Assembly: GCA_035609245.1 (NCBI GenBank)
Contig: CP141202.1
Location: 682,001-746,000 of the forward strand
DNA: 64,000 nucleotides
Direction of reading: 5' to 3'
Source of the DNA: Bacteroidales bacterium MB20-C3-3
GTDB lineage: Bacteria; Bacteroidota; Bacteroidia; Bacteroidales; UBA932
Shown here: positions 14,357 to 61,599 of the stretch, piece by piece
How positions within the stretch are numbered: position 1 is the first letter of the stretch
How the letters are laid out: each line of letters begins with the position of its first letter
Program-made: the position numbers and the translations under genes
Notes under the pieces: generated by a model
The model's input: only the letters and a program-made list of their open reading frames with translations
Database searches by the model: none
What the model was told of the DNA's origin: nothing

Positions 14357-14924
14357 GGAAGAATCGGACAAGTCACTTGCCAGACTCTCTGCCAGCGGGA
14401 GCCAGGAGGCATCGCGTGAGCTTGTAAAAAGATATTCTGAAAAGATAAAGAAGCATATAGGAACACTGGTCTCTGACACCCGCGATACTGAAGATATATC
14501 ACAGGAGGTCTTTGCCAAAGCTTTCCAGATGATAGAGAGTTATAATCCGGAATTTGCATTCTCAACCTGGATATATACTATTGCAAGAAACAGCAGTATC
14601 GACTTTATAAGGCGGAAGAGGGTTACCACCAGATCCCTGGAACTATTTGAAGGTTCTGACGAGGCTTCCGGGGGAGATCATTGGGTACCAAGTCCGGAAG
14701 AGCACCTTATCTACGAACAGGAGATAGAGAAAATACAAAAGGCGATAAATCTGCTGCCAGATCTTTACAGGGTTGTTGCAGAGATGAGATTTATTCATGA
14801 ATATGCATACGAGGAGATGGCCAAAGAGCTGGCTCTTCCGGTTGGAACAATTAAAAGCAGAGTAAGAAGAGCAAAAGAGAGATTACAGAAAGATGGAAAC
14901 CTTAATATTCAACTACTTCCCTGA
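14328..14924 (+). CDS. ECF-type RNA polymerase sigma factor
   Basis: About 198 residues from ATG 14328, which lies inside the end of polA. Sigma region 2 is clear (DTEDISQEVFAKAF followed by FSTWIYTIARNSSIDFIRRKR), with a short acidic linker and then region 4 with a helix-turn-helix (YAYEEMAKELALPVGTIKSRVRRAKERL). It directs RNA polymerase to an unknown set of promoters. No anti-sigma gene follows; rsmG starts within its last 32 bases. Its tight placement between polA and rsmG implies it is expressed with housekeeping genes rather than only under stress. Confidence 0.9.
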   Translation: MGEIGLKHIKEESDKSLARLSASGSQEASRELVKRYSEKIKKHIGTLVSDTRDTEDISQEVFAKAFQMIESYNPEFAFSTWIYTIARNSSIDFIRRKRVTTRSLELFEGSDEASGGDHWVPSPEEHLIYEQEIEKIQKAINLLPDLYRVVAEMRFIHEYAYEEMAKELALPVGTIKSRVRRAKERLQKDGNLNIQLLP

Positions 14925-49115: not shown

Positions 49116-49150
49116 AAAAAGAGGCTGACCATTTTGGTCAGCCTCTTTTT
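49114..49150. terminator. Bidirectional Rho-independent terminator
   Basis: GAGGCTGACC (49121-49130) and GGTCAGCCTC (49136-49145) form a 10-bp stem with an A run before and a T run after. It ends the hydrogenase unit on the minus strand (stop at 49149) and the peroxiredoxin transcript on the plus strand. Confidence 0.9.
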
Positions 49151-49628
49151 AGTCAGTATAGCTATCCAGAATCTCCTTGATCTGGCCAGGTTCAACTCTG
49201 CCGTATACCTTCTCTCCGATAAGCAATACAGGAGCAAGACCGCAGGCGCCAACACAACGAAGTGAATCGAGAGAGAATTTACCATCCTCAGTTACTCCAC
49301 CCACTTTTATGTTTAATTGCTTTTTAAGTTCATCCAGAACCTTCTCGGCACCTCTTACATAACATGCAGTACCCATACAAACAGATATTGCATGTCTGCC
49401 TTTAGGTGTCATAGTAAAGAAAGAGTAGAATGTAACAACTCCATAAACTTTAGCCACTGAAATCTTTAGTTTCTTGGCAATCTCGCGCTGAACACTCTCC
49501 GGCAGATAGCCAAAATGTGTCTGAGCTGAGTGTAGTATCTTGATAAGATCTCCCGGATCGTTTTTGTATGAGTCACATATTTCGTGAATACTCTTAATAT
49601 GGCACTCTTGTAGTTTCAAATTACTCAT
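49149..49628 (-). CDS. hydC: Hydrogenase subunit HydC / NuoE-like [2Fe-2S] protein
   Basis: 159 residues of the thioredoxin-like [2Fe-2S] (NuoE) family. The cluster ligands are in CMGTACYVRGAEKVL (C-x4-C) and RCVGACGLAPVLL (C-x3-C). The N-terminal helical part has the usual NuoE KPLGLYLPES-like pattern (FGYLPESVQREIAKKL). It is the smallest subunit of the HydABC-type electron-bifurcating [FeFe] hydrogenase and lies last in the unit hydC-last behind hydA. The spacing to hydA is six bases. Confidence 0.92.
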   Translation of the reverse strand: MSNLKLQECHIKSIHEICDSYKNDPGDLIKILHSAQTHFGYLPESVQREIAKKLKISVAKVYGVVTFYSFFTMTPKGRHAISVCMGTACYVRGAEKVLDELKKQLNIKVGGVTEDGKFSLDSLRCVGACGLAPVLLIGEKVYGRVEPGQIKEILDSYTD

Positions 49629-49633
49629 GACTC

Positions 49634-51397
49634 TTAGTTTTTATCTTTTTCAAAATAGTGTGTATGGAGCAAATGGTGAGCTTTTTCACTCATTGGATGG
49701 CCCAGGAATTCCTCATATAGTTTAATGATATAAGGATTCTCATGAGATTTACGCAGTTTTTTCTGTGAATCCTCTCTGTAGATAGCCTCAGACCTTGCTT
49801 TAATTATACTTGAGTCTCCATGGTGCAGAGGCTGACCAGCGCCACCGATACATCCACCCGGACAAGCCATAATCTCAATAGCGTGGAAATTGTACATTCC
49901 GGAACGGATTCCATCAAGAAGTTTTCTTGCGTTTCCAAGCTGATGAGCTATTCCGATATGAATAGGAGTACCATCAAAATCAATGGTTGCCATTCTGATT
50001 CCCTCAAGACCGCGAAGCTCTGTAAAGTCAACTTTATTAAGTTTCTTACCGGTATGAAGTTCGTAAGCAGTACGAACAGCAGCCTCAATCACACCACCTG
50101 TTACACCAAAGATAACACCAGCACCGGTTGATTCACCCAGCGGTTTATCAAACTCCTCCTCAGGAAGCTTTTCAAAGTTCATATTGCAGCTCTTAATAAG
50201 TGAAGCAAGCTCTCTGGTTGAAATTGAGAAATCTACATCCGGGTTACCGTCTACAATAAATTCTTCTCTCTGGCACTCATATTTCTTTGCCAAACAAGGC
50301 ATTACAGAAACTACTACCAGATCTTCCCTCTTCACACCCATAAGCTTGGTGTAATAGTTCTTGGCAATAGAGCCGAACATCTGCTGTGGTGAGCGTGCAG
50401 TAGAAGGAATGTCAAGCATACAAGGGTAGTACTCCTCAAAGAAGTTAACCCAGGCAGGACAGCAAGATGTAAGAATTGGAAGTTTTACATCCTTATCACC
50501 TGCAAGATATTTTGAAATTCTTCCCAAAAGCTCTGTACCCTCTTCCATAATGGTAAGGTCAGCCGCAAAGTCGGTATCAAACACCTTGTCGAATCCAAGA
50601 GAGCGGAGTGCTGCAACCATTTTGCCGGTTACAAGGGTTCCCGGCTCAAGGCCGAACTCCTCACCCAGTGCAGCACGAACTGCAGGAGCAGTCTGAACAA
50701 TAACAGTCTTTGTAGGGTCTGCAAGAGCTCTCAGCACCTTCTGAGTATCATCATAAGGAGTCAAGGCTCCTGTAGGACAAACAGCAACACACTGTCCGCA
50801 GAAAGTACAAGGAGAGTCAACCAAATCCTGCTCAAAAGCAGGGGCAACTACTGCCATAAAACCTCTGTTAACAGCACTTAGTGCTCCTACTGTCTGAACA
50901 TCATTACAAATGGTCTCGCAGCGGCGGCACATAATACACTTATCCATATCTCTCTTAAGCGCAGGAGAGAAGTCCTTTCTGTAAGTTGACATCTCAGCAT
51001 GCTCAACAGCGTGAATCTCTCTGATACCCATCTTCTGAGAGAGAGTCTGAAGATCACACTGACCAGATGAAGAACATGTAAGACACTCTTTAGGGTGGTC
51101 AGAAAGAATAAGTTCAAGAACTGTCTTTCTAGCATTCATAACTCTTAAGTTATGAGTATTAATTACCATTCCCGGAGTACATTCGGTAGAACATGAAGGG
51201 GCGAGGTTTCTTCTTCCCTCAACCTCAACCACACAAATACGGCAACCACCCGGGCGGTTTTCAATATTCAGGTGTTCAAGATTCAAATAGCAGAGAATAG
51301 GAATATCAATTCCCACCTTTTTAGCTGCCTGGTAGATGGTAGTTCCCTTTGCTACCTCTACTTCAATATTGTCAATTTTAATTTTGATATTTTCCAT
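49634..51397 (-). CDS. hydA: [FeFe] hydrogenase catalytic subunit HydA, NADH-dependent type
   Basis: 587 residues. The N-terminus has a NuoG-like [2Fe-2S] domain (Cys near 36, 52, 55, 69), then a His-Cys3 cluster (HPKECLTCSSSGQC, residues 101-114), then two [4Fe-4S] clusters (CIMCRRCETIC; CTFCGQCVAVCP). The H-cluster domain is intact: TSCCPAW (310-316) with both Cys, MPCLAKK (366-372) and the two Cys of MACPGGC (510-516). The small-subunit-like C-terminus follows. It makes or oxidises H2. Together with HydB and HydC it forms the usual bifurcating trimer using ferredoxin and NAD. Confidence 0.97.
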   Translation of the reverse strand: MENIKIKIDNIEVEVAKGTTIYQAAKKVGIDIPILCYLNLEHLNIENRPGGCRICVVEVEGRRNLAPSCSTECTPGMVINTHNLRVMNARKTVLELILSDHPKECLTCSSSGQCDLQTLSQKMGIREIHAVEHAEMSTYRKDFSPALKRDMDKCIMCRRCETICNDVQTVGALSAVNRGFMAVVAPAFEQDLVDSPCTFCGQCVAVCPTGALTPYDDTQKVLRALADPTKTVIVQTAPAVRAALGEEFGLEPGTLVTGKMVAALRSLGFDKVFDTDFAADLTIMEEGTELLGRISKYLAGDKDVKLPILTSCCPAWVNFFEEYYPCMLDIPSTARSPQQMFGSIAKNYYTKLMGVKREDLVVVSVMPCLAKKYECQREEFIVDGNPDVDFSISTRELASLIKSCNMNFEKLPEEEFDKPLGESTGAGVIFGVTGGVIEAAVRTAYELHTGKKLNKVDFTELRGLEGIRMATIDFDGTPIHIGIAHQLGNARKLLDGIRSGMYNFHAIEIMACPGGCIGGAGQPLHHGDSSIIKARSEAIYREDSQKKLRKSHENPYIIKLYEEFLGHPMSEKAHHLLHTHYFEKDKN

Positions 51398-51408: not shown

Positions 51409-53202
51409 TTATTGAACATGAATAGCTGTGAACTTACACTTCTCGTAGCAGGCACCGCAGCGGATACATTTATCTGCATCAATCACATGAGGCTGACGCT
51501 TCTCGCCGGTAATTGCATCAACAGGACAAGCCCTGACACAAGCCGTACAACCGGTACATTTGTCTGCAATAATTGTATAAAGCTTAAGAGCTTTGCAACT
51601 TCCTGCAGGGCAAACCCTCTCTGTTACGTGAGCAAGATACTCATCATAGAAATTCTCAATAGTTGAGAGAACCGGATTAGGTGAAGTTTGTCCCAAACCG
51701 CACAAAGATGTATCCTTAATAACACGGCTAAGATTCTTAAGATATTCAATATCTTCAGGAACGCCCTTACCTGAGGTTATCTTCTCAAGCATCTCGTGCA
51801 ATCTCTTGTTACCTACACGACAAGGAGCACACTTTCCGCAAGACTCCTCAACTGTAAATTCCAGGTAGAATTTAGCTACAGAAACCATACAGTCATCCTC
51901 GTCCATAACAATCATACCACCAGATCCCATCATAGAACCTGCAGCAAGAAGATTATCAAAATCAATAGGTGTATCAAGGTGCTTTTCAGTAAGACATCCG
52001 CCTGAAGGTCCACCTGTCTGAACAGCCTTGAATTTTTTACCATCCTTTATACCTCCACCAATTTCATATATTACCTCTCTTAAAGTAATACCCATTGGAA
52101 CCTCAATCAAACCCACATTGTTGATTTTTCCGGCTAACGCAAAAACCTTTGTCCCCTTTGATTTTTCTGTTCCAATTGAGGAGTACCACTCGGCACCCTT
52201 TAGGAAAATAGCAGGCACATTAGCAAATGTCTCAACATTATTAACATTTGTTGGTTTGCCAAGATAACCCTTCTCAGCAGGGAATGGTGGCTTAACAGTA
52301 GGCTCTCCGCGAAGACCCTCCATTGAGTGAATAAGTGCAGTCTCCTCTCCGCAGACAAAGGCACCTGCACCATATCTCAGCTCAATATCAAATTCAAAAC
52401 CGGAACCCAGTATCTCTTTTCCAAGAAGGCCATACTCACGCGCCTGTCTTGCAGCAACCTTAAGCCTCTTGATTGCAAGCGGATACTCGGCACGGATATA
52501 AACAATACCCTTAGTAGCGCCAATACAATACCCGCATATAGCCATAGCCTCAATTACAGAATGAGGATCACCCTCAAGGATTGAACGGTCCATAAATGCA
52601 CCCGGGTCTCCCTCGTCTGCATTACAGACAACATATTTTTGATCAGCTTTATTTTTTGAAGCAATTTCCCATTTAAGACCTGTAGGGAAACCTCCGCCGC
52701 CCCTGCCGCGAAGACCTGCCTTTTTCAGCAGATCAATAGCCTCCTGAGGAGTCATATCAGCCAAAATATTTCCTAACGCTGCATATCCATCTCTTGCAAT
52801 GTACTCATCAATATTTTCAGGATCAATAAAACCGCAGTTTCTAAGGGCAATTCTCATCTGTTTCTGATAGAATCCCATATGCTTTGAGTCCTCAATATGT
52901 TTCTGAGTCTCCGGATCTTCATACAGAAGTCTGTGAACTTTTCTTCCCTTAAGGACATGTTCACGAATAATCTCGGCACAATCCTCTTTCTTAACCTGAG
53001 TATAGAAAGTATTGTCCGGTATAATCTTAACAATCGGCCCCTTTTCACAAAAGCCAAAACAACCAGTTGTAACAACCTGAGCGTCGTTTTCCAGCCCAAG
53101 GTTCTTTATTTCCGATTTGAGATTCTCTACGATCTGCTCGCTCTCTGAAGCTCTGCAACCCGTTCCGCCGCAAACCAGAAGATGCAATTTATACTGTGCC
53201 AT
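51409..53202 (-). CDS. hydB: Hydrogenase subunit HydB / NuoF-like flavoprotein
   Basis: 597 residues. Domains in order: an N-terminal thioredoxin-like [2Fe-2S] domain (GGTGCRASES and TTGCFGFCEKGP), the NuoF FMN/NADH region (LRGRGGGGFPTGLKWE; CNADEGDPGAF), an SLBB domain, a [4Fe-4S] site (ESCGKCAPCRVG), and a C-terminal 2[4Fe-4S] ferredoxin domain (CTGCTACVRACP; CIRCGACYEKC). The arrangement is that of HydB in bifurcating hydrogenases rather than of Complex I. Spacing is seven bases from the next gene upstream and 11 bases to hydA. Confidence 0.95.
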   Translation of the reverse strand: MAQYKLHLLVCGGTGCRASESEQIVENLKSEIKNLGLENDAQVVTTGCFGFCEKGPIVKIIPDNTFYTQVKKEDCAEIIREHVLKGRKVHRLLYEDPETQKHIEDSKHMGFYQKQMRIALRNCGFIDPENIDEYIARDGYAALGNILADMTPQEAIDLLKKAGLRGRGGGGFPTGLKWEIASKNKADQKYVVCNADEGDPGAFMDRSILEGDPHSVIEAMAICGYCIGATKGIVYIRAEYPLAIKRLKVAARQAREYGLLGKEILGSGFEFDIELRYGAGAFVCGEETALIHSMEGLRGEPTVKPPFPAEKGYLGKPTNVNNVETFANVPAIFLKGAEWYSSIGTEKSKGTKVFALAGKINNVGLIEVPMGITLREVIYEIGGGIKDGKKFKAVQTGGPSGGCLTEKHLDTPIDFDNLLAAGSMMGSGGMIVMDEDDCMVSVAKFYLEFTVEESCGKCAPCRVGNKRLHEMLEKITSGKGVPEDIEYLKNLSRVIKDTSLCGLGQTSPNPVLSTIENFYDEYLAHVTERVCPAGSCKALKLYTIIADKCTGCTACVRACPVDAITGEKRQPHVIDADKCIRCGACYEKCKFTAIHVQ

Positions 53203-53208
53203 TTCTCC

Positions 53209-53610
53209 TTAGTTTTTGTCGTTAATAGTTTTGTAGTTAGTTGGTATTATACCATCCAGCAACTCACCGTTTACAATATATTTGTCAACGATTTCAATTG
53301 CCTTTGCAGTATCTACATAACCAAAGACAACAGGATCCTTGCCGGGAACCTTTACCTCAATTGTCGGCTCAGCATAGCAATAGCCCATACAACCACCCTG
53401 TGTTACAACCGCAGGAATTTTTTCCTTCTCGATCTTCTCCACAAGAGTATTCATTACCGTTCTGGCTCCTGATGCAATGCCGCAAGTAGCCATAGCAACA
53501 CGGATCTGAACAAGAGACTCAGGCTCATTACTCTTTTCACGGATGTTCATTCCGTGTTCGAGATTTTGCTTCATCTTGCGCAAATCTTCTAGGGACTTGA
53601 TTTTGTTCAT
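53209..53610 (-). CDS. Small [2Fe-2S] thioredoxin-like ferredoxin (HndB-like)
   Basis: 133 residues of the (2Fe-2S) ferredoxin-like family. The Cys residues are in MATCGIASGARTV and VTQGGCMGYCYAEP, spaced as in NuoE-type clusters. Such proteins occur as a fourth subunit with NADH- or NADP-linked [FeFe] hydrogenases. It is the first gene of the hydrogenase structural unit. The 103-base gap upstream (53611-53713) is AT-rich; TAATTTTG at 53685-53678 on the minus strand is a possible -7 box without a -33. Confidence 0.88.
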   Translation of the reverse strand: MNKIKSLEDLRKMKQNLEHGMNIREKSNEPESLVQIRVAMATCGIASGARTVMNTLVEKIEKEKIPAVVTQGGCMGYCYAEPTIEVKVPGKDPVVFGYVDTAKAIEIVDKYIVNGELLDGIIPTNYKTINDKN

Positions 53611-53713: not shown

Positions 53714-54400
53714 TTAAAAGTTTGAAATTAAAAGAGAGCACAATTCCGGCACCCCTTCGCAAGCCCTTTTCTTAATATGAGTAAACTCTCTGTATGAAGG
53801 TCTTACATCAGCAGGATCAACAAGAAAAGAGGAGACTCCGTGCCTTACATAATCAACAAGACCTGCAGCCGGATAGACAGCTAATGAGGTTCCCACAACA
53901 ATAAAAATATCGGCAAGTGAAACTAACTTTGCACCACTCTCCAGCTCCGGAACCTCTTCACCAAAGAAGACTATATGAGGCCGCAGCTGTGAGCCATCAG
54001 GCGCAAAATCGCCAATATGCACATCGCCCGGTGTATCTACAATTAATGATGGATTTTTAATACTTCTGCTCTTCAGCAACTCCCCGTGCAAATGAAGCAC
54101 ATTTGAAGAGCCGGCCCTCTCATGAAGATTATCAACATTTTGTGTTACTATATCAACAGTGAAATATTTTTCAAGCTCCACCAAAGCAAAGTGAGCAGCA
54201 TTAGGTTCAACTTTTGAAAGCTGTTCTCTTCTCATATTGTAAAAATTGAGAACCAGTTCAGGATTTCTCCTGAGTGCATCAGGAGTGCAGACATCCTCTA
54301 TTCTGTAGTTAGCCCACAAACCATTTGAATCTCTGAATGTATCCAACCCACTCTCAGCACTAATACCGGCACCGGAAAGAACAACTACCCTCTTTTTCAT
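53714..54400 (-). CDS. cobB: Sir2-type NAD-dependent protein deacylase
   Basis: 228 residues. The sirtuin core is present: VLSGAGISAESGLDTFRDSNGLW at the N-terminus, TQNVDNLHERAG, the catalytic His in VLHLHGELLKSR and VGTSLAVYPAAG. The usual zinc-ribbon Cys residues are not seen between HGEL and LRPHIVFFGE, as in other Bacteroidetes sirtuins, so this is a Zn-free variant. It removes acyl groups from Lys with NAD. It closes the sensory cluster 53714-58123, but may be independent. The gap to the ATPase gene upstream is 11 bases. Confidence 0.85.
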   Translation of the reverse strand: MKKRVVVLSGAGISAESGLDTFRDSNGLWANYRIEDVCTPDALRRNPELVLNFYNMRREQLSKVEPNAAHFALVELEKYFTVDIVTQNVDNLHERAGSSNVLHLHGELLKSRSIKNPSLIVDTPGDVHIGDFAPDGSQLRPHIVFFGEEVPELESGAKLVSLADIFIVVGTSLAVYPAAGLVDYVRHGVSSFLVDPADVRPSYREFTHIKKRACEGVPELCSLLISNF

Positions 54401-54411
54401 CTTAAGCCTGT

Positions 54412-54954
54412 TTAACTCTTTAACTCAGCAATATTTTCCATTATCATCTCCTCCAGCATCTTGATAACCCTTACATCACTGAGAGGAATTTCACCAAGCA
54501 CCTCAGCAACCTCAACACTGTCAAAAATATAATCATTATCATTGAATATATACCTGAATACAAAATGGATATCAGGATTTGCCGAGACCATCAGAACAAA
54601 TGAGTTTGCAACATTCCCAAGAGGAGGCCTGTCAATATTTGAGTGTCCGAACCAAGCCTTTACAACGCTACCCTTACCAGGTTCGGAAGATATAGAAAGC
54701 CCGCCGCCACTTTGCAAAGCCGATTGTTTATAGAGAGGAATTCCCATACCCACTCTCCTTGTTGTTCTGGTGGTATAGAACGGATCCTCCAGCCTCTCTA
54801 CCGTCTCTCTGCTCATCCCTTTACCGTTATCTTCAATAACTATTGTTAATGTATCGGCCGGAATATTCTCATCTACCATCAGGGTAATAAGGGTTGCCCC
54901 CGCACTTATTGAGTTCTGAATAATATCAATGATATGAAGAGATAAATCGTTCAT
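54412..54954 (-). CDS. GHKL ATPase domain protein without kinase acceptor domain
   Basis: 180 residues. The N-terminal two thirds are a histidine-kinase-type ATP-binding domain: N box DIIQNSISAGA, G1 box IEDNGKGM, F box FYTTRTTRR and G2 GMGIPLY. There is no HisKA helix and no phosphoacceptor His, and no response-regulator gene. The C-terminal region (residues 120-180) is of unknown type. The start overlaps the PHP gene stop by four bases. It is likely a partner-switching regulator or a kinase of the hydrogenase sensor module (inference). Confidence 0.8.
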   Translation of the reverse strand: MNDLSLHIIDIIQNSISAGATLITLMVDENIPADTLTIVIEDNGKGMSRETVERLEDPFYTTRTTRRVGMGIPLYKQSALQSGGGLSISSEPGKGSVVKAWFGHSNIDRPPLGNVANSFVLMVSANPDIHFVFRYIFNDNDYIFDSVEVAEVLGEIPLSDVRVIKMLEEMIMENIAELKS

Positions 54955-55685
54955 CTTGTTTTGTACTGAGGTGGATTTTTAGTTGAAGAAAGAGCACTTT
55001 TTAGAGAGGAGAATGAAACATCTGATATATCAAGCAGAGTATATGCACCCCCAATTTGTTCAGGATAGTGAGCATCAGAACTTTTGATAAAATTGAACCC
55101 TCTGATGGATTTATCTTTTGCAGCCATAGCAGAGGCATCTGCATTCTGAGAGATCTCCAGGGCCTCAGCACTCAACCCAAAGGGCAAAAACCCCAGCTGG
55201 CTGTATACAGAGTTTGACCCCTTGTCAATATGAGCAGGAATAAAAATTCCGCCAAGAGAATGGACAAAACCGCCAACCTCCTCTATACTCTTGTCAATTG
55301 CATTTATAAGCAGATACTCTACCTCGGCAACAACCTCCTCATCAGAATTAACTGCAAGCTGGTAGCCGAATACATCCGGATCATTAGGAATCTTTACGAT
55401 ACTCTTTTCCAGGAAATCCTGAAGCTCTGAAAGGCGATTCTGCTCTACAAAACAGAGGAGATGAACCTCCTCACGAGTAGTAACCTCAGCACCACATAAT
55501 ACAAATATACCCCTCTCCTCTCCAACTCTGGAGATTTCCAAACAATTAAGAGTACTATTATGATCTGCAATCCCAATAACATCCAACCCCTCATCTGCAG
55601 CCCTCGAGATAATGTTCAGAGGGGTCATTTCAATATCTCCGCAGGGAGAGAGAACTGTATGTATATGGAGGTCTGCCCTTATCAT
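54951..55685 (-). CDS. PHP domain metal-dependent phosphoesterase-like protein
   Basis: 244 residues of the PHP (polymerase and histidinol phosphatase) superfamily. Metal ligands are seen in DLHIHTVLSPCGD (HxH), GIADHNST and a late SSDAHYP. The residue order fits the TrpH/RNase AM-like PHP branch. Substrate unknown. PHP proteins often accompany [FeFe] hydrogenase regulatory clusters in Firmicutes and Thermotoga (family knowledge). Four-base overlaps at both ends with its neighbours imply strict co-translation. Confidence 0.85.
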   Translation of the reverse strand: MIRADLHIHTVLSPCGDIEMTPLNIISRAADEGLDVIGIADHNSTLNCLEISRVGEERGIFVLCGAEVTTREEVHLLCFVEQNRLSELQDFLEKSIVKIPNDPDVFGYQLAVNSDEEVVAEVEYLLINAIDKSIEEVGGFVHSLGGIFIPAHIDKGSNSVYSQLGFLPFGLSAEALEISQNADASAMAAKDKSIRGFNFIKSSDAHYPEQIGGAYTLLDISDVSFSSLKSALSSTKNPPQYKTR

Positions 55686-56014
55686 TTTAACATTTCGTAG
55701 AGCCTGCCTGCAAGTTCAAAAGCCTGCATCTTTGTACCCATAACCGGAATGCCCTCCTTTACGGAGAGCTCAATTGTATCAGGATCAGGCTCAAAACCCT
55801 TTACAAGAATAATAGCAGCGATATCCTTCAGAGATGCCACTGCCATAATGTTTTTATGAGTTTGAAGAGTAATCCAGATATGCCCCTCTTGTGCATGACC
55901 CATTACATCTGAGAGTAAATCCGATGCATAACCACCTGTAACCTCTCTGTCAAGCCCCTCAGGCGCAGAAAAAACATTCAGAGACAAACTCTCTGCGATA
56001 TCCCTTACTTTCAT
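55682..56014 (-). CDS. DRTGG domain protein (copy 2)
   Basis: 110 residues. It is a free DRTGG domain (about 100 residues, named after a conserved motif here seen as EVTGGYASD near residue 26; the domain sits in phosphotransacetylases and CBS proteins). It resembles the copy at 57779-58123 in length and pattern (both have GYASD/AFASD-LMSDV). The domain is a presumed ligand or nucleotide sensor. Its stop overlaps the PHP start. The 24-base gap to the hydrogenase-like sensor gene is the largest inside the cluster's core. Confidence 0.85.
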   Translation of the reverse strand: MKVRDIAESLSLNVFSAPEGLDREVTGGYASDLLSDVMGHAQEGHIWITLQTHKNIMAVASLKDIAAIILVKGFEPDPDTIELSVKEGIPVMGTKMQAFELAGRLYEMLK

Positions 56015-56038
56015 ATCCTTTATAATGTAAAATTTAGT

Positions 56039-57367
56039 TTATTCCTTATCAAAACGGGCATCACCCCATATTCTCTCCATTATCTTAACAGCCTCATCCA
56101 GACCCAGCTCCCCTCTCTTTTCATATATTGTCCTGAGAAATATACAAGAGTTTATCTCTCCCTGCCCCTTGGCAATATCCTCCGCAAGTGCCTCACAGCT
56201 TGGAGCGCCACAGGCACCACAGTCGATACCCGGAAATAGATCTTTTAGCTCTCTGGCCTTCTCCATCTTCTGTAATGCAACTTCAATATCCCAGTCATAT
56301 TTAACCATTGACCTGGGCTCAATCTGCTCCATATGAATCACAGCAGATGTGTATTTTTTATATTCATCAACTAATTTATGAATCTCAGGTGTTTGCGCAG
56401 CATATTTTCTCATTGTCTCTGCAGCAAGAAATCTGTTTCTGTGTGAAAGAATACCTCCTGCACAAGACTCATCGCAAGCCCTTAACTCAAGGAAATCAAC
56501 ATCCTCAATCTCCTCATTCTCCAGTAACTCAAGGAAATCTATGACATTTGCCATTCCGTCAATAGCCAGAGTTCTCCCTTCAATATGAGCAGCCTCGCCT
56601 CCTGTAGTAGGATAAAGAATTCCCTTTGAAGAGATTTCACTGTTAACTTTTACCGTTGTTGTGATTGGAATTCTCTGTTTATAAGCCAGAAAAACCTTGT
56701 TAAAGAAATAATCCATGTTAATAACACCCGTTATAGGAGAGGTGTAACCCCCTACAGGTGATTTAACTGCAGCTATTTTTCCAATGCAAGGTGTCAGGTA
56801 AAAAATCCCCAGATCTTCCGGGTTTCCGCCCTCCTGCTCGTGTTTTCTCTTATAATACTGAGCCGTAATCTCAAGGGGAGGAAGAAGAGTCATTATCTTG
56901 TCAACAAGAGAAGGGAATCTAACCTGAATAAGCCTGATCACAGCCGGACAAAAAGATGAAATAACCGGTTTTTCGGCATTTCTCACATACTCCTGCTCCT
57001 CCTCAAGAAGGGTATCAACACTCTGCTCAACAGCACAGACCTCAGTAAACCCAAGCTCTCCTATTATTTCAAATATTCTCTCTCTTGGAATAGCGTCATC
57101 AAACTGAGCAAAAAAGACAGAAGGGACAAGCAATAATCTTCTTTTGTAGCTGAAAATCTGCTTGAAGTCATCATCCATTACCCTTATAGCTCTGTTGGGA
57201 CAAATTCTGTAACACTCCCCGCAATCAATACACCAGTCTATATGAATTTTTGCCTTTCCTCCGGTAACTCTCAGAGCCTCGGTAGGGCAAACCTTCATAC
57301 AGTGCGAACACCCGATACATACATCGTTCAGGATCTCCAGCGCACGATTGTAGGTTGTACTACTCAT
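56039..57367 (-). CDS. Sensory [FeFe] hydrogenase-like protein with extra iron-sulfur domains
   Basis: 442 residues. Residues 17-27 and 46-56 form two [4Fe-4S] clusters (CxxCxxCxxxCP and CIDCGECYRIC). The H-cluster domain has SFCP (139-141) instead of SCCP, TPC with Cys194, and Cys298 and Cys302 of ACDESC. So the Cys ligands of the H-cluster (C140, C194, C298, C302) are kept, but the proton-relay Cys (C299 in Clostridium CpI numbering) is Phe139. This is the pattern of sensory or non-turnover group C/D-like enzymes. A C-terminal CxxC-x4-C-x16-C (383-408) adds one more cluster. It is predicted to be a redox or H2 sensor. Confidence 0.88.
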   Translation of the reverse strand: MSSTTYNRALEILNDVCIGCSHCMKVCPTEALRVTGGKAKIHIDWCIDCGECYRICPNRAIRVMDDDFKQIFSYKRRLLLVPSVFFAQFDDAIPRERIFEIIGELGFTEVCAVEQSVDTLLEEEQEYVRNAEKPVISSFCPAVIRLIQVRFPSLVDKIMTLLPPLEITAQYYKRKHEQEGGNPEDLGIFYLTPCIGKIAAVKSPVGGYTSPITGVINMDYFFNKVFLAYKQRIPITTTVKVNSEISSKGILYPTTGGEAAHIEGRTLAIDGMANVIDFLELLENEEIEDVDFLELRACDESCAGGILSHRNRFLAAETMRKYAAQTPEIHKLVDEYKKYTSAVIHMEQIEPRSMVKYDWDIEVALQKMEKARELKDLFPGIDCGACGAPSCEALAEDIAKGQGEINSCIFLRTIYEKRGELGLDEAVKIMERIWGDARFDKE

Positions 57368-57777
57368 CAGAAATTATAATTTATATATAGTGTTGTCCCT
57401 TTTCCAACCTCACTCTCTATCCTGAACTCATCGGCATTCTCGCTTATATTTGGCAAGCCCATCCCTGCTCCAAAACCCATCTCTCGCACCTGAGCAGATG
57501 CTGTAGAAAAACCGGGAGTCATCGCCTGCTCAATATCCGGAATACCAGGCCCCTCATCAGCAAGTTTAAGTCTCACTCCTGATGGAAGGATCTCTGCTGT
57601 GATGACACCCCTGTAGGCATGAGCAACAATGTTCACCTCAGCCTCGTAAAGAGCTATAACAACTCTTTTTACTACTCTTGGGTCAACATTGAGCTGCTTT
57701 AGCATCTTCTTTATTTGAGAAGAGGCATTCCCTGCAGCAGTGAAATCACCACCCTCCACCTTGAATTCCAGATTCAT
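57367..57777 (-). CDS. RsbW/SpoIIAB-like ATPase (anti-sigma-type kinase)
   Basis: 136 residues. The GHKL fold is complete: N box EAEVNIVAHAY near residue 47, G1 DEGPGI and G2 GFGAGMGLPN. The length and lack of other domains match RsbW-type Ser kinases that bind sigma factors or anti-sigma antagonists. No STAS antagonist or sigma gene is next to it, so its target may be the sensor protein or a DRTGG protein. Its stop overlaps the sensor start by one base and it lies one base after DRTGG copy 1. Confidence 0.88.
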   Translation of the reverse strand: MNLEFKVEGGDFTAAGNASSQIKKMLKQLNVDPRVVKRVVIALYEAEVNIVAHAYRGVITAEILPSGVRLKLADEGPGIPDIEQAMTPGFSTASAQVREMGFGAGMGLPNISENADEFRIESEVGKGTTLYINYNF

Positions 57778-57778
57778 A

Positions 57779-58123
57779 TTAATAAATAGGCTTTAAGCCG
57801 GCGGAATAAAGTATTCCGGCACATTTAAACATTGAAAAAGCAGAACTTATAATAAGCATATCGTTCTCAACAGCAAGGTCAAGCATCTCATTAGAAATCT
57901 CTTTGCCTCTGCAAATCAGCAAGTAAGGAGTATCAGACATCTCTGCGGTTCTTATTGCCTGAAGATTTGCCAATCCGGTAATAAGAATAAATTCATTTGT
58001 TTTAACCGTCAGAACATCACTCATCAGATCTGAAGCAAATGCCTGTTCAACATTTCCATCCAGATGCCCCTCTCCACAAAGTACGGTCCCCTCGACCAGT
58101 TTGCACAAATCCTTGATTTTCAT
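57779..58123 (-). CDS. DRTGG domain protein (copy 1)
   Basis: 114 residues, first gene of the sensory cluster. It is a single DRTGG-type domain: VEQAFASDLMSDVLTVKTNEF near residue 27, with PYLLICRGKEI later. It is diverged from copy 2 (55682-56014), so the two are paralogs rather than a recent duplication. No promoter could be found; the region 58124-58133 up to the next gene's stop is only ten bases, so its promoter must lie inside the upstream gene or transcription reads through from it. Confidence 0.8.
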   Translation of the reverse strand: MKIKDLCKLVEGTVLCGEGHLDGNVEQAFASDLMSDVLTVKTNEFILITGLANLQAIRTAEMSDTPYLLICRGKEISNEMLDLAVENDMLIISSAFSMFKCAGILYSAGLKPIY

Positions 58124-58133
58124 CTTTTTTATA

Positions 58134-59249
58134 TTACAAAGTCTTTATATAGCACCTTCTCTTCATATAGGGCTCAGAATTATATCTCTCCCACACTTTG
58201 AAAGCCGAGTTATTCTCTGCCTGAGGATTTGTAATTCCTACACTTACTCCCATCCTGTTCAGGTGAGCGCCTATATAAGTATGAAAAATAGATGTAACAC
58301 CTTTATGTTGCCATTCGGGTGCAGCTCCAATCATCATAAAATCAATAGTATCATATTTCCTGAATGCCCTTAGAATATGAAGAAGGCCAAATGGAAAAAG
58401 TCTCCCCTTTGCCTTCTGAAAAGCCTTGCTTAAACTAGGAAAACATATTCCAAAAGCGGCAATATTATCATCTTTATCCAGGACAATGCTTGTAAGCTCC
58501 GGCTTAAGTTTTGGAAAATACTCCTTACCTATGCTCCTGATCTCTGCAGGAGTCATTGGAACAAAATTATCAATCTCCCTGAAACTACCATTATAGCTCT
58601 TGAAAAATCTATCTACCAATGAATCAATGTCTTTAATCTTCTTTATATCAAGAACTTTAAGGTTATACTTCTCAAGAAGCATATTGTTAATATTTACAAT
58701 CCTTTTGTCAATAGGAGCTCCGGTAGCAATTTTAATCTGAATCCAGTCTAGCTGTTTGCCATATCCCATCCTCTCAAGGTAATCAGGGTAATAGGGATAA
58801 TTGTATATACAATTTACCGGAGGTATATTTTCAAAACCTTCAATCATCATACCCTGTTTACCCCATGTATTAAAACTGAGAGGGCCGTGAATCTCCTCCA
58901 TTCCCAACTCTCTTCCCCAATTTTCCACACAGTTGATAAGGGCCTCTGCCACCTCAAAATTTTCAATAAAATCTATCCACCCAAACCTCACCCTTTTTTC
59001 TGTATGAAATTCATTTGAGCGAGGATTAAAGATACCGGCAACCCGACCAATTACGACATTGTCTTCATCAGTTGCCAGCCACAGTTTAATTTTACAATAC
59101 TCAAGAGAGGGGCTTTTAGTAAGGATTGAGATCTCATCAATATCAAGTGACGGAACATACTGTTTGTTTCCTTTAAATAGCTTGTGAGGGAACCTTACGA
59201 ATCTTTTTATATCTGACTTTGATGTAATCTCTTTTACAGTAATTTTCAT
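58134..59249 (-). CDS. GNAT-like N-acetyltransferase fold protein (YghO-like)
   Basis: About 371 residues from ATG 59249; a GTG three codons before (59258) is in frame. It resembles a family of long (370-390) GNAT-fold proteins in Bacteroidetes (YghO-like): RFPHKLFKGNKQYVPSL near residue 20, a region with HGPLSFNTWGKQGMMIEGFENIPP, and a C-terminal SIFHTYIGAHLNRMGVSVGITNPQAENN. No specific acetyl-CoA motif or substrate could be read. A TATATTTG box on the minus strand (59288-59281) is a probable -7 element. It may read through into the DRTGG gene ten bases downstream. Confidence 0.65.
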   Translation of the reverse strand: MKITVKEITSKSDIKRFVRFPHKLFKGNKQYVPSLDIDEISILTKSPSLEYCKIKLWLATDEDNVVIGRVAGIFNPRSNEFHTEKRVRFGWIDFIENFEVAEALINCVENWGRELGMEEIHGPLSFNTWGKQGMMIEGFENIPPVNCIYNYPYYPDYLERMGYGKQLDWIQIKIATGAPIDKRIVNINNMLLEKYNLKVLDIKKIKDIDSLVDRFFKSYNGSFREIDNFVPMTPAEIRSIGKEYFPKLKPELTSIVLDKDDNIAAFGICFPSLSKAFQKAKGRLFPFGLLHILRAFRKYDTIDFMMIGAAPEWQHKGVTSIFHTYIGAHLNRMGVSVGITNPQAENNSAFKVWERYNSEPYMKRRCYIKTL

Positions 59250-59289
59250 CAGGAACACAATTGTTTAGGTATAGGCAAAACAAATATAA

Positions 59290-60033
59290 TCATTTTTTCT
59301 CATTAAGAGATAGCAGATCTTCAAGCACAACCTGGGCACAAAGACACCCAAACACAGCGGGCAGATATGAGATAGTTCCCACCATTGACTTTTTATTTTG
59401 CTCCTCAACAGGAACAATAGCGTCACTATCCGGCAGCTCCTCTGAGAAGACAACCCGGAAACCTTTGCTAATACCCTCTTTTCTCAATTTTTTTCTCAGA
59501 ATATAGGCTAAAGGACAATTGTATGACTTAGAAATATCCTTAACAGTAACCTTTGTAGCATCACTCTTGGCTCCGGCCCCCATTGAACTTACCAGATTTA
59601 TTCCGTTACTTACTGCATATTTAATTAGGGCAATCTTAGGTGATAAAGTATCAATGGCATCTACAATGAAATCAGGGTTGAATGGAGAGAGAAGTGTTTC
59701 AACATTCTCTTCTGTTAAGTACTCATTAATAGAAACAATATCAAGCTCAGGATTGATATCCTTCAGCCTCTCCCCCATCAGCTCGCTTTTATACCGCCCC
59801 ATTGTACTCTCGAGTGCAAGTAATTGTCTGTTCTTATTGGTATGGGTAACAACATCTGAATCAATAATTACGATCTTTCCAACTCCAGCCCTTACAATCA
59901 TCTCGGCAGCATAAGCCCCTACTCCGCCAAGACCTACAACAATCACCCCGGAATCTCTTAATTTTTGCATCCTCTCCTCGCCCAGAAAAAGAAGAGACCT
60001 CTCCTGCCATCTCCATTTATTTGAATACTCCAT
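59290..60033 (-). CDS. tcdA: tRNA threonylcarbamoyladenosine dehydratase
   Basis: 247 residues from ATG 60033; upstream in-frame codons overlap mazG and are not used. The ThiF/E1-like ATP site is VVGLGGVGAYAAEMIVRAGV and the Asp/Arg adenylation residues follow in IIDSDVVTHTNKNRQ. The Cys near the C-terminal domain (NCPLAYILRKKLRKEG) and VPVEEQNKKS are also typical. TcdA (CsdL) cyclises t6A37 in tRNA. Its start overlaps the mazG stop by one base (TAATG), so the two are coupled. Confidence 0.93.
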   Translation of the reverse strand: MEYSNKWRWQERSLLFLGEERMQKLRDSGVIVVGLGGVGAYAAEMIVRAGVGKIVIIDSDVVTHTNKNRQLLALESTMGRYKSELMGERLKDINPELDIVSINEYLTEENVETLLSPFNPDFIVDAIDTLSPKIALIKYAVSNGINLVSSMGAGAKSDATKVTVKDISKSYNCPLAYILRKKLRKEGISKGFRVVFSEELPDSDAIVPVEEQNKKSMVGTISYLPAVFGCLCAQVVLEDLLSLNEKK

Positions 60034-60833
60034 TATCCCACAATCTTTTTTGACTCTTCCCAAACCCTGTCCATCTCTTCTAGCGCCATCTCCTTGATAT
60101 TCTGCCCATTCTCCACAGCCCATCTCTCTAAATATCCAAACCTTTTAATAAATTTCATATTAGTCATCTCCAAAGCAGTGTCCGGATTAATATCATAAAG
60201 CCTGGCAGCGTTGACAAGAGAAAATAGAAGATCTCCAAACTCTTTTTCCATTTCACCTCTCTCCTCTCCTTCAATACTCCTGGAGCTGACAGCCTCGGCC
60301 TCAAACTCAGATATCTCCTCTTTTACCTTACTCCAGACATCCTCTCTGTTTGCCCAGTCAAAACCTACTGCTCTCACTTTATCCTGGATCCTGTAAGCCT
60401 TTACAAGAGAGGGAAGCGAGGCAGGCACACCGGAGAGGATGGTTTTGTTTCCATCCTTCTCTCTCCTTTTAAGCTGTTCCCAGTTCTGAATCACCTCTCC
60501 GGCTCCGCTGACTTCAACATTGCCAAAAACATGAGGATGACGGAAAATCAGCTTCTCACAAATCAAATTCATTACATCTGCAATGTCAAAAAGCCCCTTC
60601 TCCTTACCGATTTTCGCATAGAAAACCATATGAAGCATCAGATCTCCCAACTCTTTGCTAACCCCTTTATAATCTTTTTCCAGAATGGAATCACTAAGTT
60701 CATAAGTCTCCTCTATAGTCAGTGGTCTCAGGCTCTCCATTGTCTGTTTCATGTCCCAAGGACATCTCTCTCTCAATTCGTCCATAACATCAAGAAGGCG
60801 GACGAAAGCCTTAATCTCATTTTCCCTGCTCAT
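60033..60833 (-). CDS. mazG: Nucleoside triphosphate pyrophosphohydrolase MazG
   Basis: About 266 residues from ATG 60833. It has the two tandem MazG domains: the first with CPWDMKQTMESLRPLTIEETYEL and ELGDLMLHMVFYAKIG (metal Glu and Asp), the second with KVKEEISEFEAE and EFGDLLFSLVNAARLY. MazG clears aberrant nucleotides and regulates ppGpp in E. coli. It starts 17 bases inside the 3' end of the upstream gene and is coupled to tcdA. Confidence 0.95.
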   Translation of the reverse strand: MSRENEIKAFVRLLDVMDELRERCPWDMKQTMESLRPLTIEETYELSDSILEKDYKGVSKELGDLMLHMVFYAKIGKEKGLFDIADVMNLICEKLIFRHPHVFGNVEVSGAGEVIQNWEQLKRREKDGNKTILSGVPASLPSLVKAYRIQDKVRAVGFDWANREDVWSKVKEEISEFEAEAVSSRSIEGEERGEMEKEFGDLLFSLVNAARLYDINPDTALEMTNMKFIKRFGYLERWAVENGQNIKEMALEEMDRVWEESKKIVG

Positions 60834-61599
60834 TATCAAATTTTATTCTAATTTCTGCCCCGGGGACAATACTCTCAAGTTTTGCCAGGGAGTCCATATA
60901 AACTGCTATCTCCAGAAAGCCCAAAGAGTTAAACAGGGCCATAATACCTCCGGGATTTCCCTGGTAATACCCCCTTGATATACTTCTGATCTTAATATGC
61001 GGCCCCTGAACATAAATTGTAAAGGCCCTTGCCTTGTGAACCCTGTCAAATGTACTCTTCTCAATATTACTTATCGCATTCCCAAAAGAATCAATATATA
61101 ATACCTTTCCGGTAATTGTATTCTCATCGTATGCAACTCTTGCAAGAGACTCTTTCTTAAGATCACAAGCCTTTGTATTTGCCTCAAAAGAGTTTTCAAG
61201 AATAGTTTTCACCCCCTTTGCAAACAGAGAGACTGCAGTAAAAGTTGAAAAAGACTCTTCAACATTAATTGCAAATGCAATTGAAGGAGGATTTTCAAAC
61301 AACTGAGAGAATCTACCATCATTAATACCAATAAAGTAGTGATTATTCGCGTAAACAATCACCATCTGACTATCCGGCAAAGGTTCACTCATCACACCCA
61401 TAAGGTGAATTGAATTATGGGGGAAATGGGTATATGTGCTTTTTAAAATGAAAGTTTCCTGCAAAACATCAAAACTTGGAATGGAATTTGTTATCTCGAG
61501 CAGATTAATTTTTGACGAGACAGAAGCCAGCCTGCCCCTGAGAGCACCCAGATAGTAGTCATTTTTATTCCAATCACTTGTTAATGTAACAATTGTCAT
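60817..61599 (-). CDS. S-adenosylmethionine hydroxide adenosyltransferase (DUF62) family protein
   Basis: 260 residues. The family pattern of DUF62 SAM hydrolase/halogenase-like proteins is visible: TLTSDWNKNDYYLGALRG at the N-terminus (Asp residues that position SAM), FIGINDGRFS, and the late IDSFGNAISNIEK. These enzymes split SAM into adenosine and methionine using water. The Asp-Gly-Asn pieces are partly substituted relative to classic SAM hydroxide transferases. It opens the leftward unit with mazG, tcdA and perhaps the GNAT gene, and is divergent from the CoA-transferase gene. Confidence 0.8.
   Translation of the reverse strand: MTIVTLTSDWNKNDYYLGALRGRLASVSSKINLLEITNSIPSFDVLQETFILKSTYTHFPHNSIHLMGVMSEPLPDSQMVIVYANNHYFIGINDGRFSQLFENPPSIAFAINVEESFSTFTAVSLFAKGVKTILENSFEANTKACDLKKESLARVAYDENTITGKVLYIDSFGNAISNIEKSTFDRVHKARAFTIYVQGPHIKIRSISRGYYQGNPGGIMALFNSLGFLEIAVYMDSLAKLESIVPGAEIRIKFDNEQGK

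Follow-up and report, generated by a model that had tools for sequence, protein, structure and literature searches.

A stretch of 64,000 nucleotides from the genome of Bacteroidales bacterium MB20-C3-3 (CP141202.1, positions 682,001 to 746,000; this whole stretch is called the window) carries at 53714-58123 a row of genes around a divergent [FeFe]-hydrogenase, HydS-D (Table 1). Six of them form a module that is conserved in order and usually leads into the hydBAC genes: a small DRTGG protein (DRTGG1), an RsbW/SpoIIAB-type GHKL protein (RsbW), HydS-D itself, a second DRTGG protein (DRTGG2), a PHP-family protein and a lone GHKL ATPase (GHKL2). As to its function, we regard it as plausible, short of probable, that the module is an H2- or redox-responsive, partner-switch-like kinase system around HydS-D in which the lone DRTGG proteins take the role of STAS proteins.

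An earlier reading of the window (the sequence-only reading) had proposed that seven leftward genes form a sensory module linked to hydABC. Conservation and linkage were borne out for six of the seven. HydS-D was detected (E <= 1e-50) in 97 of 295 genomes of the order, which were evenly drawn and each at least 90% complete; we examined the neighbourhoods in 96 loci of HydS-D genomes, the 97th being the window. The DRTGG-RsbW-HydS triad stood in a row in 92 of the 96. In one locus without the full triad a contig end cuts the row and part of DRTGG1 is visible (G789), in another RsbW was detected close to a contig end that contains a run of N (G592), and the remaining two are taken up below. Downstream of HydS, 54 of the 96 loci had the complete order DRTGG2-PHP-GHKL2-Trx-HydB-HydA-HydC on the strand of HydS (Trx denotes a thioredoxin-like gene), the others being shorter, cut or rearranged. 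In the rearranged type, found in L165, L169, L178 and many of the rumen-titled loci L050-L080, DRTGG2-PHP-GHKL2 precedes DRTGG1. The same gene order in relatives indicates that the cluster is more than chance.

Far from being scattered and never adjacent to hydABC, the module had HydB (score >800) within the fetched locus in 65 of 96 cases, 64 of them with HydB on the module's strand. Two further loci contained the Trx gene only, eight stopped short of 3.5 kb beyond HydS, and 21 lacked HydB within the 7-9 kb fetched downstream. In Parabacteroides distasonis a 375-kb record holds the six module genes together (76.1-79.8 kb) and Trx-hydBAC ~58 kb away from them (13.3-17.8 kb); the record is labelled a plasmid, yet it carries gyrA and is therefore probably a piece of chromosome. 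From the 21 loci and this split we conclude that adjacency to hydABC, as seen in the window, is usual but not obligatory.

At the level of whole genomes, an orthologue of HydB (best E <= 1e-255) was present in 94 of the 97 genomes with HydS-D versus 37 of the 198 others (Fisher 6e-42, a value that ignores relatedness). The three HydS-D genomes that failed this threshold were G752, where the contig stops within a HydB gene of the HydS-D locus, and two with a more distant HydB (G568 and G635). A second HydC-HydB-HydA set occurs in the window's own genome (L229, 2225-7727), with HydB within an open reading frame (ORF) of 1066 aa, and many Bacteroidales loci (e.g. L123, L124 and L125) have a second such set just upstream of the module.

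Outside the Bacteroidales, the triad was present in loci titled Spirochaetales (L081) and Sphaerochaetaceae (L082). Two loci outside the class (L203 and L204) are two of only three positives among 296 genomes of the window's own phylum, the third being its own genome; here the triad is followed by DRTGG2-PHP-GHKL2-HydC-Trx-HydB-HydA. L205 and L206, two of three positives in 149 genomes from the phylum of genome G099, likewise carry the triad. The only Clostridia locus seen with the module, from Subdoligranulum variabile (L085), reads DRTGG1-RsbW-HydS-DRTGG2-PHP, with one ORF (DUF3592) between RsbW and HydS, and is divergent from HydC-GHKL2-Trx-HydB-HydA. In L207 and L208, DRTGG-RsbW-HydS occurs with HydC-HydB-HydA further on and no match to PHP. 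The gene sets common to these loci show that the smallest common unit is DRTGG-RsbW-HydS, and the kinase and the small protein that accompany the sensor across phyla are direct candidates for the signal route. Acetoanaerobium, also of the Clostridia, has HydCBA and a group C-like sensor, and no module in the stretches fetched. A scan of viral contigs with the RsbW protein found no relative.

With order conserved across loci and phyla, a chance cluster is ruled out. Unrelated regulators might still have been packed beside hydABC, and packing of that kind does occur here: a sirtuin, a 374-aa ORF, ThiF, MazG and SAM_HAT adjoin the module, each in close relatives only or in scattered cases. The six genes behave differently, since their triad recurs outside the phylum as well as in 92 of the 96 loci of the order, and the whole set has stayed together in P. 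distasonis at ~58 kb from hydBAC. A mere gene neighbourhood, disfavoured by these observations, is thus very improbable.

HydS-D consists of a ferredoxin part with two [4Fe-4S] motifs, an H-domain (Fe_hyd_lg_C, 75.5 bits) and a C-terminal Cx2Cx4Cx16C motif; no PAS domain was among the Pfam matches of its 442 aa at E <= 0.01. We counted residues in 98 non-redundant sequences, with positions of the hydrogenase CpI assigned by motif. The four cysteines corresponding to the H-cluster ligands (CpI C300, C355, C499 and C503) are retained, C140, C298 and C302 in 98/98 sequences and C194 in 97/98. Of the N-terminal [4Fe-4S] cysteines, C17, C23, C27, C46, C49, C52 and C56 were found in 97/98 and C20 in 93/98, and the C-terminal C383, C386, C391 and C408 in all 98. 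The position of CpI C299 is occupied by F139 and is Phe in 88, Tyr in seven, Ser in two and Ala in one of the sequences, and Cys in none. At the position of CpI M353 the window has Thr (Thr in 90/98, Ser in 6/98), and at that of M497 it has Arg (88/98), a conserved residue that offers a handle for H-cluster chemistry.

The published marks of the M2e class are the lack of C299, a C-terminal Cx2Cx4Cx16C, the lack of a PAS domain and a place upstream of a trimeric bifurcating hydrogenase (PMC8163306; this and the other papers are cited from the available parts of their text). Charged residues given for group D from TamHydS of Thermoanaerobacter mathranii (R30, R32, K35, D378, E392, D393 and D403) were also compared, the positions being mapped by spacing only: R33 is kept in 94, K38 in 80, D382 in 97, E396 in 77 and D397 in 95 of the 98 sequences, and the R32 position is Arg in 44 (Thr in the window) and the D403 position Asp in 23 (Ser in the window). 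In a hydrogenase tree of 51 rows, which did not include the TamHydS sequence and in which group letters were taken from domain make-up and papers, a branch supported by 100/100 set the 28 HydS-D rows, including the Clostridia and Spirochaete ones, apart from the group A and C rows. Group C (13 rows, among them the HydS of Ruminococcus albus) was supported by 99/97 and group A (six rows) by 100/100. The hydrogenase encoded beside HydS-D in the window belongs to group A, and the HydABC enzyme would be of the bifurcating kind. By its sequence hallmarks HydS-D fits the PAS-less, putative sensory group D (M2e) kind, in agreement with the earlier suggestion of a sensory type. Both this sensor and its place beside hydABC were already known. 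HydS-D would sense H2, a function that is putative in print too.

The protein encoded upstream of HydS-D matched HATPase_c_2 with 46.0 bits (Pfam cut-off 27.4); its best NCBIfam model was spIIAB (1.4e-15; 57.4 bits, under the curated 135) and its best relatives in the PDB were SpoIIAB structures (E ~4e-11). Residues E45, N49, D74, G76, G78, G103, G105 and G107 of the N, G1 and G2 boxes are each shared by at least 95% of 87 sequences. Members of the SpoIIAB/RsbW family are Ser/Thr kinases. Judging from these residues and relatives, the RsbW-like protein is probably a kinase of this type with an intact ATP site.

DRTGG1, encoded next to this predicted kinase, scored 21.9 bits against the DRTGG family of Pfam, under the cut-off of 25.2, and DRTGG2 scored 30.0 bits, over it. 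The assignment of DRTGG1 is backed by its fold. An AlphaFold2 model (50 sequences) reached a mean predicted local distance difference test (pLDDT) of 97.2, and Foldseek matched it to the DRTGG protein AF1212 (2ioj, TM 0.84) as well as to the regulatory region of CBS-DRTGG pyrophosphatase and to HPr kinase; at the level of sequence, a search of the PDB yielded nothing useful for it. A near-invariant SDL(M/L)SDV(L/M) motif is common to DRTGG1 and DRTGG2; in DRTGG1 it reads SDLMSDVL at residues 31-38. S35 and T49 are invariant in both families (102/102 non-redundant sequences of DRTGG1, 89/89 of DRTGG2). In the model, residues 31-33 connect a strand (27-30) to a short helix (34-37), a predicted site that recalls, without proof, the second-helix serine of STAS antagonists (PMC13373217).

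The fold of DRTGG1 could also be read as that of a nucleotide sensor. DRTGG would then bind an adenine nucleotide that PHP hydrolyses, HydS-D being a coupled slow redox enzyme, and the module would report nucleotide or energy charge. The matched regulatory regions of CBS-DRTGG pyrophosphatases were solved with ligands, which we take to be adenine nucleotides, and the residues of PHP are intact. However, neither DRTGG protein has a CBS domain in Pfam, and sensing of this kind leaves unexplained the kinase gene next to HydS in all the phyla seen. We consider it an improbable account.

PHP matched its Pfam family with 34.8 bits; its best relative in the PDB (2e-6) was 3e0f, a remote, putative metal-dependent phosphoesterase. 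Ten likely metal ligands, D5, H7, H9, D41, H42, E67, H75, H152, D204 and H206, were at least 95% conserved in 98 sequences. GHKL2 gave an HATPase_c match of 54.0 bits and none to HisKA in Pfam, as had been read from the window, and its AlphaFold2 model (pLDDT 91.3) had GHKL proteins in all of its best 50 Foldseek matches. Its N box has an Asp (D10) where RsbW has a Glu (E45; alignment by eye), and its C-terminal domain (residues ~105-180) is confidently folded and belongs to no named family.

The position of GHKL2 bears on a different function for the module, namely assembly or post-translational control. The module would mature, repair or gate HydABC, with HydS-D as a redox scaffold and GHKL2 as an ATP-driven assembly factor. 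Of the module genes, GHKL2 is the one nearest hydB; the Trx-like gene comes right after it in 59 of 96 loci, and in L085, from Clostridia, HydC and the Trx-like gene flank it on either side. Furthermore, the HATPase protein HydE of Acetobacterium woodii is absent from the active enzyme and perhaps serves in assembly or signalling (PMC3315566), and HydS-D closely co-occurs with HydB. On the other hand, the 37 of 198 genomes that keep a HydB orthologue without HydS-D show that such hydrogenases occur without the module, and an assembly factor would not be expected to include a SpoIIAB-type kinase or to conserve an H-cluster site. We therefore hold this explanation to be somewhat unlikely.

The window's own genome (2.38 Mb in one contig, 97% complete, with five Fe_hyd_lg_C proteins) was searched for the remaining parts of a partner switch. 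HATPase_c_2 had one match over its cut-off, the RsbW of the module, and two weaker ones under it; DRTGG had two, both in the module and one of them under the cut-off. No stand-alone STAS protein was found in this genome, the sole STAS match lying in a 596-aa sulfate permease. SpoIIE had one match, which lies outside the module and beside a second sensor, of the group C type. The genome thus combines one RsbW-type kinase, no lone STAS protein, two DRTGG proteins, one SpoIIE and a second sensor, and this combination is new here.

These counts bear on how the switch would work. In classical partner switching, the RsbW-like protein would act as an anti-sigma factor, binding a sigma factor until a STAS protein encoded elsewhere sets it free, and the DRTGG proteins would be accessories. 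The best structural relative of the RsbW-like protein is SpoIIAB, and a gene of the window (14316-14924) encodes a sigma factor by Pfam. Short stand-alone STAS frames (105-143 aa) occur in at least 22 of the 97 HydS-D genomes, one of them G010 from the genus of the window, so that STAS partners are possible there. By contrast, the window's genome has no lone STAS protein, and 18 of the 97 genomes (counted by eye) had no STAS match at all, against 79 with one. We rate classical switching as quite unlikely. The gene at 14316-14924, an extracytoplasmic function (ECF) sigma factor that the sequence-only reading had named as a possible binding partner of the RsbW-like protein, is indeed a sigma factor by Pfam, but nothing ties it to the module and we found no support for a link in a neighbourhood comparison that covered the window's own gene families only. 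Partner switching as such, which that reading had also raised, is possible, but in this genome its antagonist would be a DRTGG protein and not a STAS protein.

The SpoIIE gene starts 19 bases after that of a 572-aa group C-type HydS, itself located behind a 471-aa hydrogenase; the sensor shows a weak match to PAS (19.8 versus a cut-off of 21.8 bits). R. albus (L225) and Monoglobus likewise have these genes together, in the order HydS-SpoIIE-hydrogenase. Among group C loci, SpoIIE was beside the sensor in 10 of 20 and further off in one (L253). Two of the nine group C loci without SpoIIE were scanned, and both had a fused HisKA-HATPase. Group C sensors of the SpoIIE type occurred in 11 of 14 HydS-D genomes versus one of seven others (Fisher 0.016), with six of the 11 from one genus; this count covers 20 of 22 places (without G011 and G003) plus the window's own genome and includes G091, in which SpoIIE does not adjoin the sensor.

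SpoIIE was also found in the fetched HydS-D locus in 9 of 96 cases, from six families. In G633, G086, G712 and G784 it lies upstream of DRTGG1 on the same strand, together with a group C HydS, and in G784 only three bases separate the SpoIIE stop from the ATG of DRTGG1. In G571 and G733 it is divergent and accompanied by a small protein, which in G733 has a PAS and no hydrogenase domain. This arrangement, a small protein beside a SpoIIE gene and divergent from DRTGG1-RsbW-HydS, occupies 5209-7348 in L189, where the small protein has the PAS and no hydrogenase domain, and 9964-12073 in L196. SpoIIE lies elsewhere in the hyd region in G552, G769 and G593, the sensor being cut by the stretch end in the last two. 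This nearness weakly suggests that phosphatase and kinase belong to one circuit. A binomial value for it (7e-10) assumes random placement at 18 kb in 4 Mb and ignores relatedness and the clustering of hydrogenase genes, and we do not rely on it.

In the mechanism that we tentatively propose, HydS-D, which keeps the H-cluster site and has the proton-transfer cysteine and the flanking methionines replaced, would read H2 or electron load. A change in H2 or electron pressure would alter HydS-D so that it binds or releases the RsbW-type kinase. The kinase would then phosphorylate DRTGG1, which is encoded just before it and is its likely substrate and binding partner, and DRTGG1 would play the part that SpoIIAA and RsbV, as STAS proteins, play in partner switching. 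DRTGG2, PHP and GHKL2 may form a second, counteracting arm, and removal of the phosphate may fall to the SpoIIE phosphatase, whose gene lies next to that of the group C sensor at another place in the genome. Whether DRTGG1 is free or phosphorylated would decide the output, presumably an adjustment of the level or activity of HydABC. If this holds, it would show how fermenting bacteria tune H2 production and would make DRTGG a phospho-switch domain. A wider version, in which the group D sensor drives the RsbW kinase, the group C (PAS) sensor drives SpoIIE and both arms act on lone DRTGG proteins that replace STAS, is doubtful; if true, H2 would gate a partner switch that uses a new class of switch protein and sets electron routing to H2.

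Several observations weigh against the DRTGG-based switch. Besides the short STAS frames mentioned above, no SpoIIE was found within the fetched stretch in 87 of the 96 loci, and its nearness in the others may only reflect the clustering of hydrogenase genes. The invariant S35 and T49 could serve the fold or ligand binding, and we found no report of a phosphorylated DRTGG protein, with no literature search aimed at that. In TamHydS, the C-terminal cluster was not reduced by H2 (PMC13104023). Finally, G661 (L199) and G791 (L157), two genomes of one genus, have HydS-D without DRTGG1-RsbW upstream; the G661 locus is a 3.2-kb fragment, and the genus is probably a real exception to the triad. In L157 the DRTGG2-PHP-GHKL2 half is kept despite the missing genes.

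In the window itself, all seven leftward ORFs of the sequence-only reading were found on the minus strand, and its domain assignments agree with the Pfam and NCBIfam matches (Table 1). The six junctions from DRTGG1 to the sirtuin are a gap of 1, an overlap of 1, a gap of 24, two overlaps of 4 and a gap of 11 bases, so that the overlaps of 1-4 bases noted earlier apply to three of them. The sirtuin ends 103 bases before the Trx-like [2Fe-2S] ORF, which is followed by HydB, HydA and HydC. This ORF had no Pfam match and matched two 2Fe-2S ferredoxin models of NCBIfam, both under their curated cut-offs; its position between GHKL2 and HydB is kept in relatives. The sirtuin gene, the seventh of the row, was found at the module in only one of the 96 order-level loci plus the window. 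Among 13 close loci (L036-L047 and L049, the last with a HydS-D 100% identical to the window's) it was present in eight, absent in four and cut in one, and locus comparison rules it out as a module member and marks it as a lineage-specific insert.

A 374-aa ORF without a Pfam match ends 10 bases upstream of the DRTGG1 gene, so the transcription unit may start further upstream in the window's genus. It is the first of a run of genes on the same strand directly upstream of DRTGG1 (58134-61599), followed by genes for ThiF, MazG and SAM hydroxide adenosyltransferase (SAM_HAT). All four accompany the module in the window's genus only and were rejected as members. Promoter and terminator scans gave 39 and 18 consensus sites versus shuffled means of 26.8 and 9.3, from which we draw no conclusion.

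Table 1. Genes of the module, its surroundings and the second sensor cluster (window coordinates unless stated otherwise)
Feature	Position	Strand	Description
DRTGG1	57779..58123	-	114 aa; lone DRTGG-fold protein; proposed stand-in for STAS antagonist/substrate
RsbW/SpoIIAB-type GHKL kinase (predicted)	57367..57777	-	136 aa; N, G1 and G2 boxes intact
HydS-D	56039..57367	-	442 aa; PAS-less, group D-like putative sensory [FeFe]-hydrogenase
DRTGG2	55682..56014	-	110 aa; second lone DRTGG protein; Pfam 30.0 bits
PHP-family metal-dependent phosphoesterase (putative)	54951..55685	-	244 aa; likely metal ligands conserved
GHKL2	54412..54954	-	180 aa; lone GHKL ATPase, no HisKA
SIR2 sirtuin	53714..54400	-	228 aa; SIR2 137.8 bits; lineage-specific insert, judged outside the module
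Trx-like [2Fe-2S] protein	53209..53610	-	first of the hyd genes
HydB	51409..53202	-	NuoF-like flavoprotein subunit; Pfam
HydA	49634..51397	-	group A [FeFe]-hydrogenase; Pfam and tree
HydC	49149..49628	-	NuoE-like subunit; NCBIfam
Second sensor cluster, own genome	L228 7558-11919; C1 ~1996057-2000418		471-aa [FeFe]-hydrogenase, 572-aa HydS and SpoIIE in a row

No published description of this gene set was found in a literature search whose coverage excluded subscription papers. The same search found no work that joins DRTGG with anti-sigma factors; DRTGG and hydrogenase are joined, in the available text, by an AAA-DRTGG protein needed for growth on lactate. The closest known sensor is TamHydS, which, like HydS-D, has two N-terminal [4Fe-4S] motifs, an H-domain without C299, a C-terminal Cx2Cx4Cx16C motif and, in the available descriptions, no PAS domain (PMC8163306, PMC13104023). 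Its gene, too, lies upstream of a trimeric bifurcating hydrogenase and beside a histidine-kinase-like ATPase. In contrast to HydS-D, with Thr and Arg at the M353 and M497 positions and Phe at that of C299, TamHydS has Ser and Leu at the former two. Its flanks hold an AraC regulator and one ATPase, and DRTGG, RsbW-type and PHP partners are not named in the available passages. TamHydS is reported to undergo an H2-induced change in secondary structure (PMC13104023). In Thermoanaerobacter, a histidine kinase protein and a group D-like hydrogenase are reported upstream of the A1 genes (PMC3608648). The hydE gene of A. woodii, in the hydA1-hydE operon, encodes a GHKL-type ATPase among hyd genes, which we liken to GHKL2 by description only, and the available text mentions no HydS, DRTGG or PHP there (PMC3315566).

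The group C HydS of R. albus (L225) resembles HydS-D as an H-domain sensor encoded beside partner-switching machinery, in this case a putative Ser/Thr phosphatase (PMC6776011), and its cluster has the same kinds of genes as the second sensor cluster of the window's genome. It differs in its PAS part (a weak Pfam match), in having a SpoIIE phosphatase instead of RsbW-type and DRTGG proteins, and in its separate tree branch. Expression of the R. albus cluster was 111-fold lower when the bacterium grew together with a partner that uses H2 (PMC6776011); this speaks for H2 control in the sister family, not in the module described here.

On the side of the switch, the nearest likeness is to SpoIIAA-SpoIIAB and RsbV-RsbW (1TH8, 1TID; PMC7340262), with a small GHKL protein encoded beside a small partner and a SpoIIE-type phosphatase in the genome. 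Unlike in these systems, the partner slot is filled by a DRTGG fold and not by STAS. CapK-CapS likewise pairs a SpoIIAB-type kinase with a neighbouring small protein and has an output other than a sigma factor; in that system, however, CapS is a STAS-wHTH repressor and the input is single-stranded DNA rather than H2 (PMC13373217).

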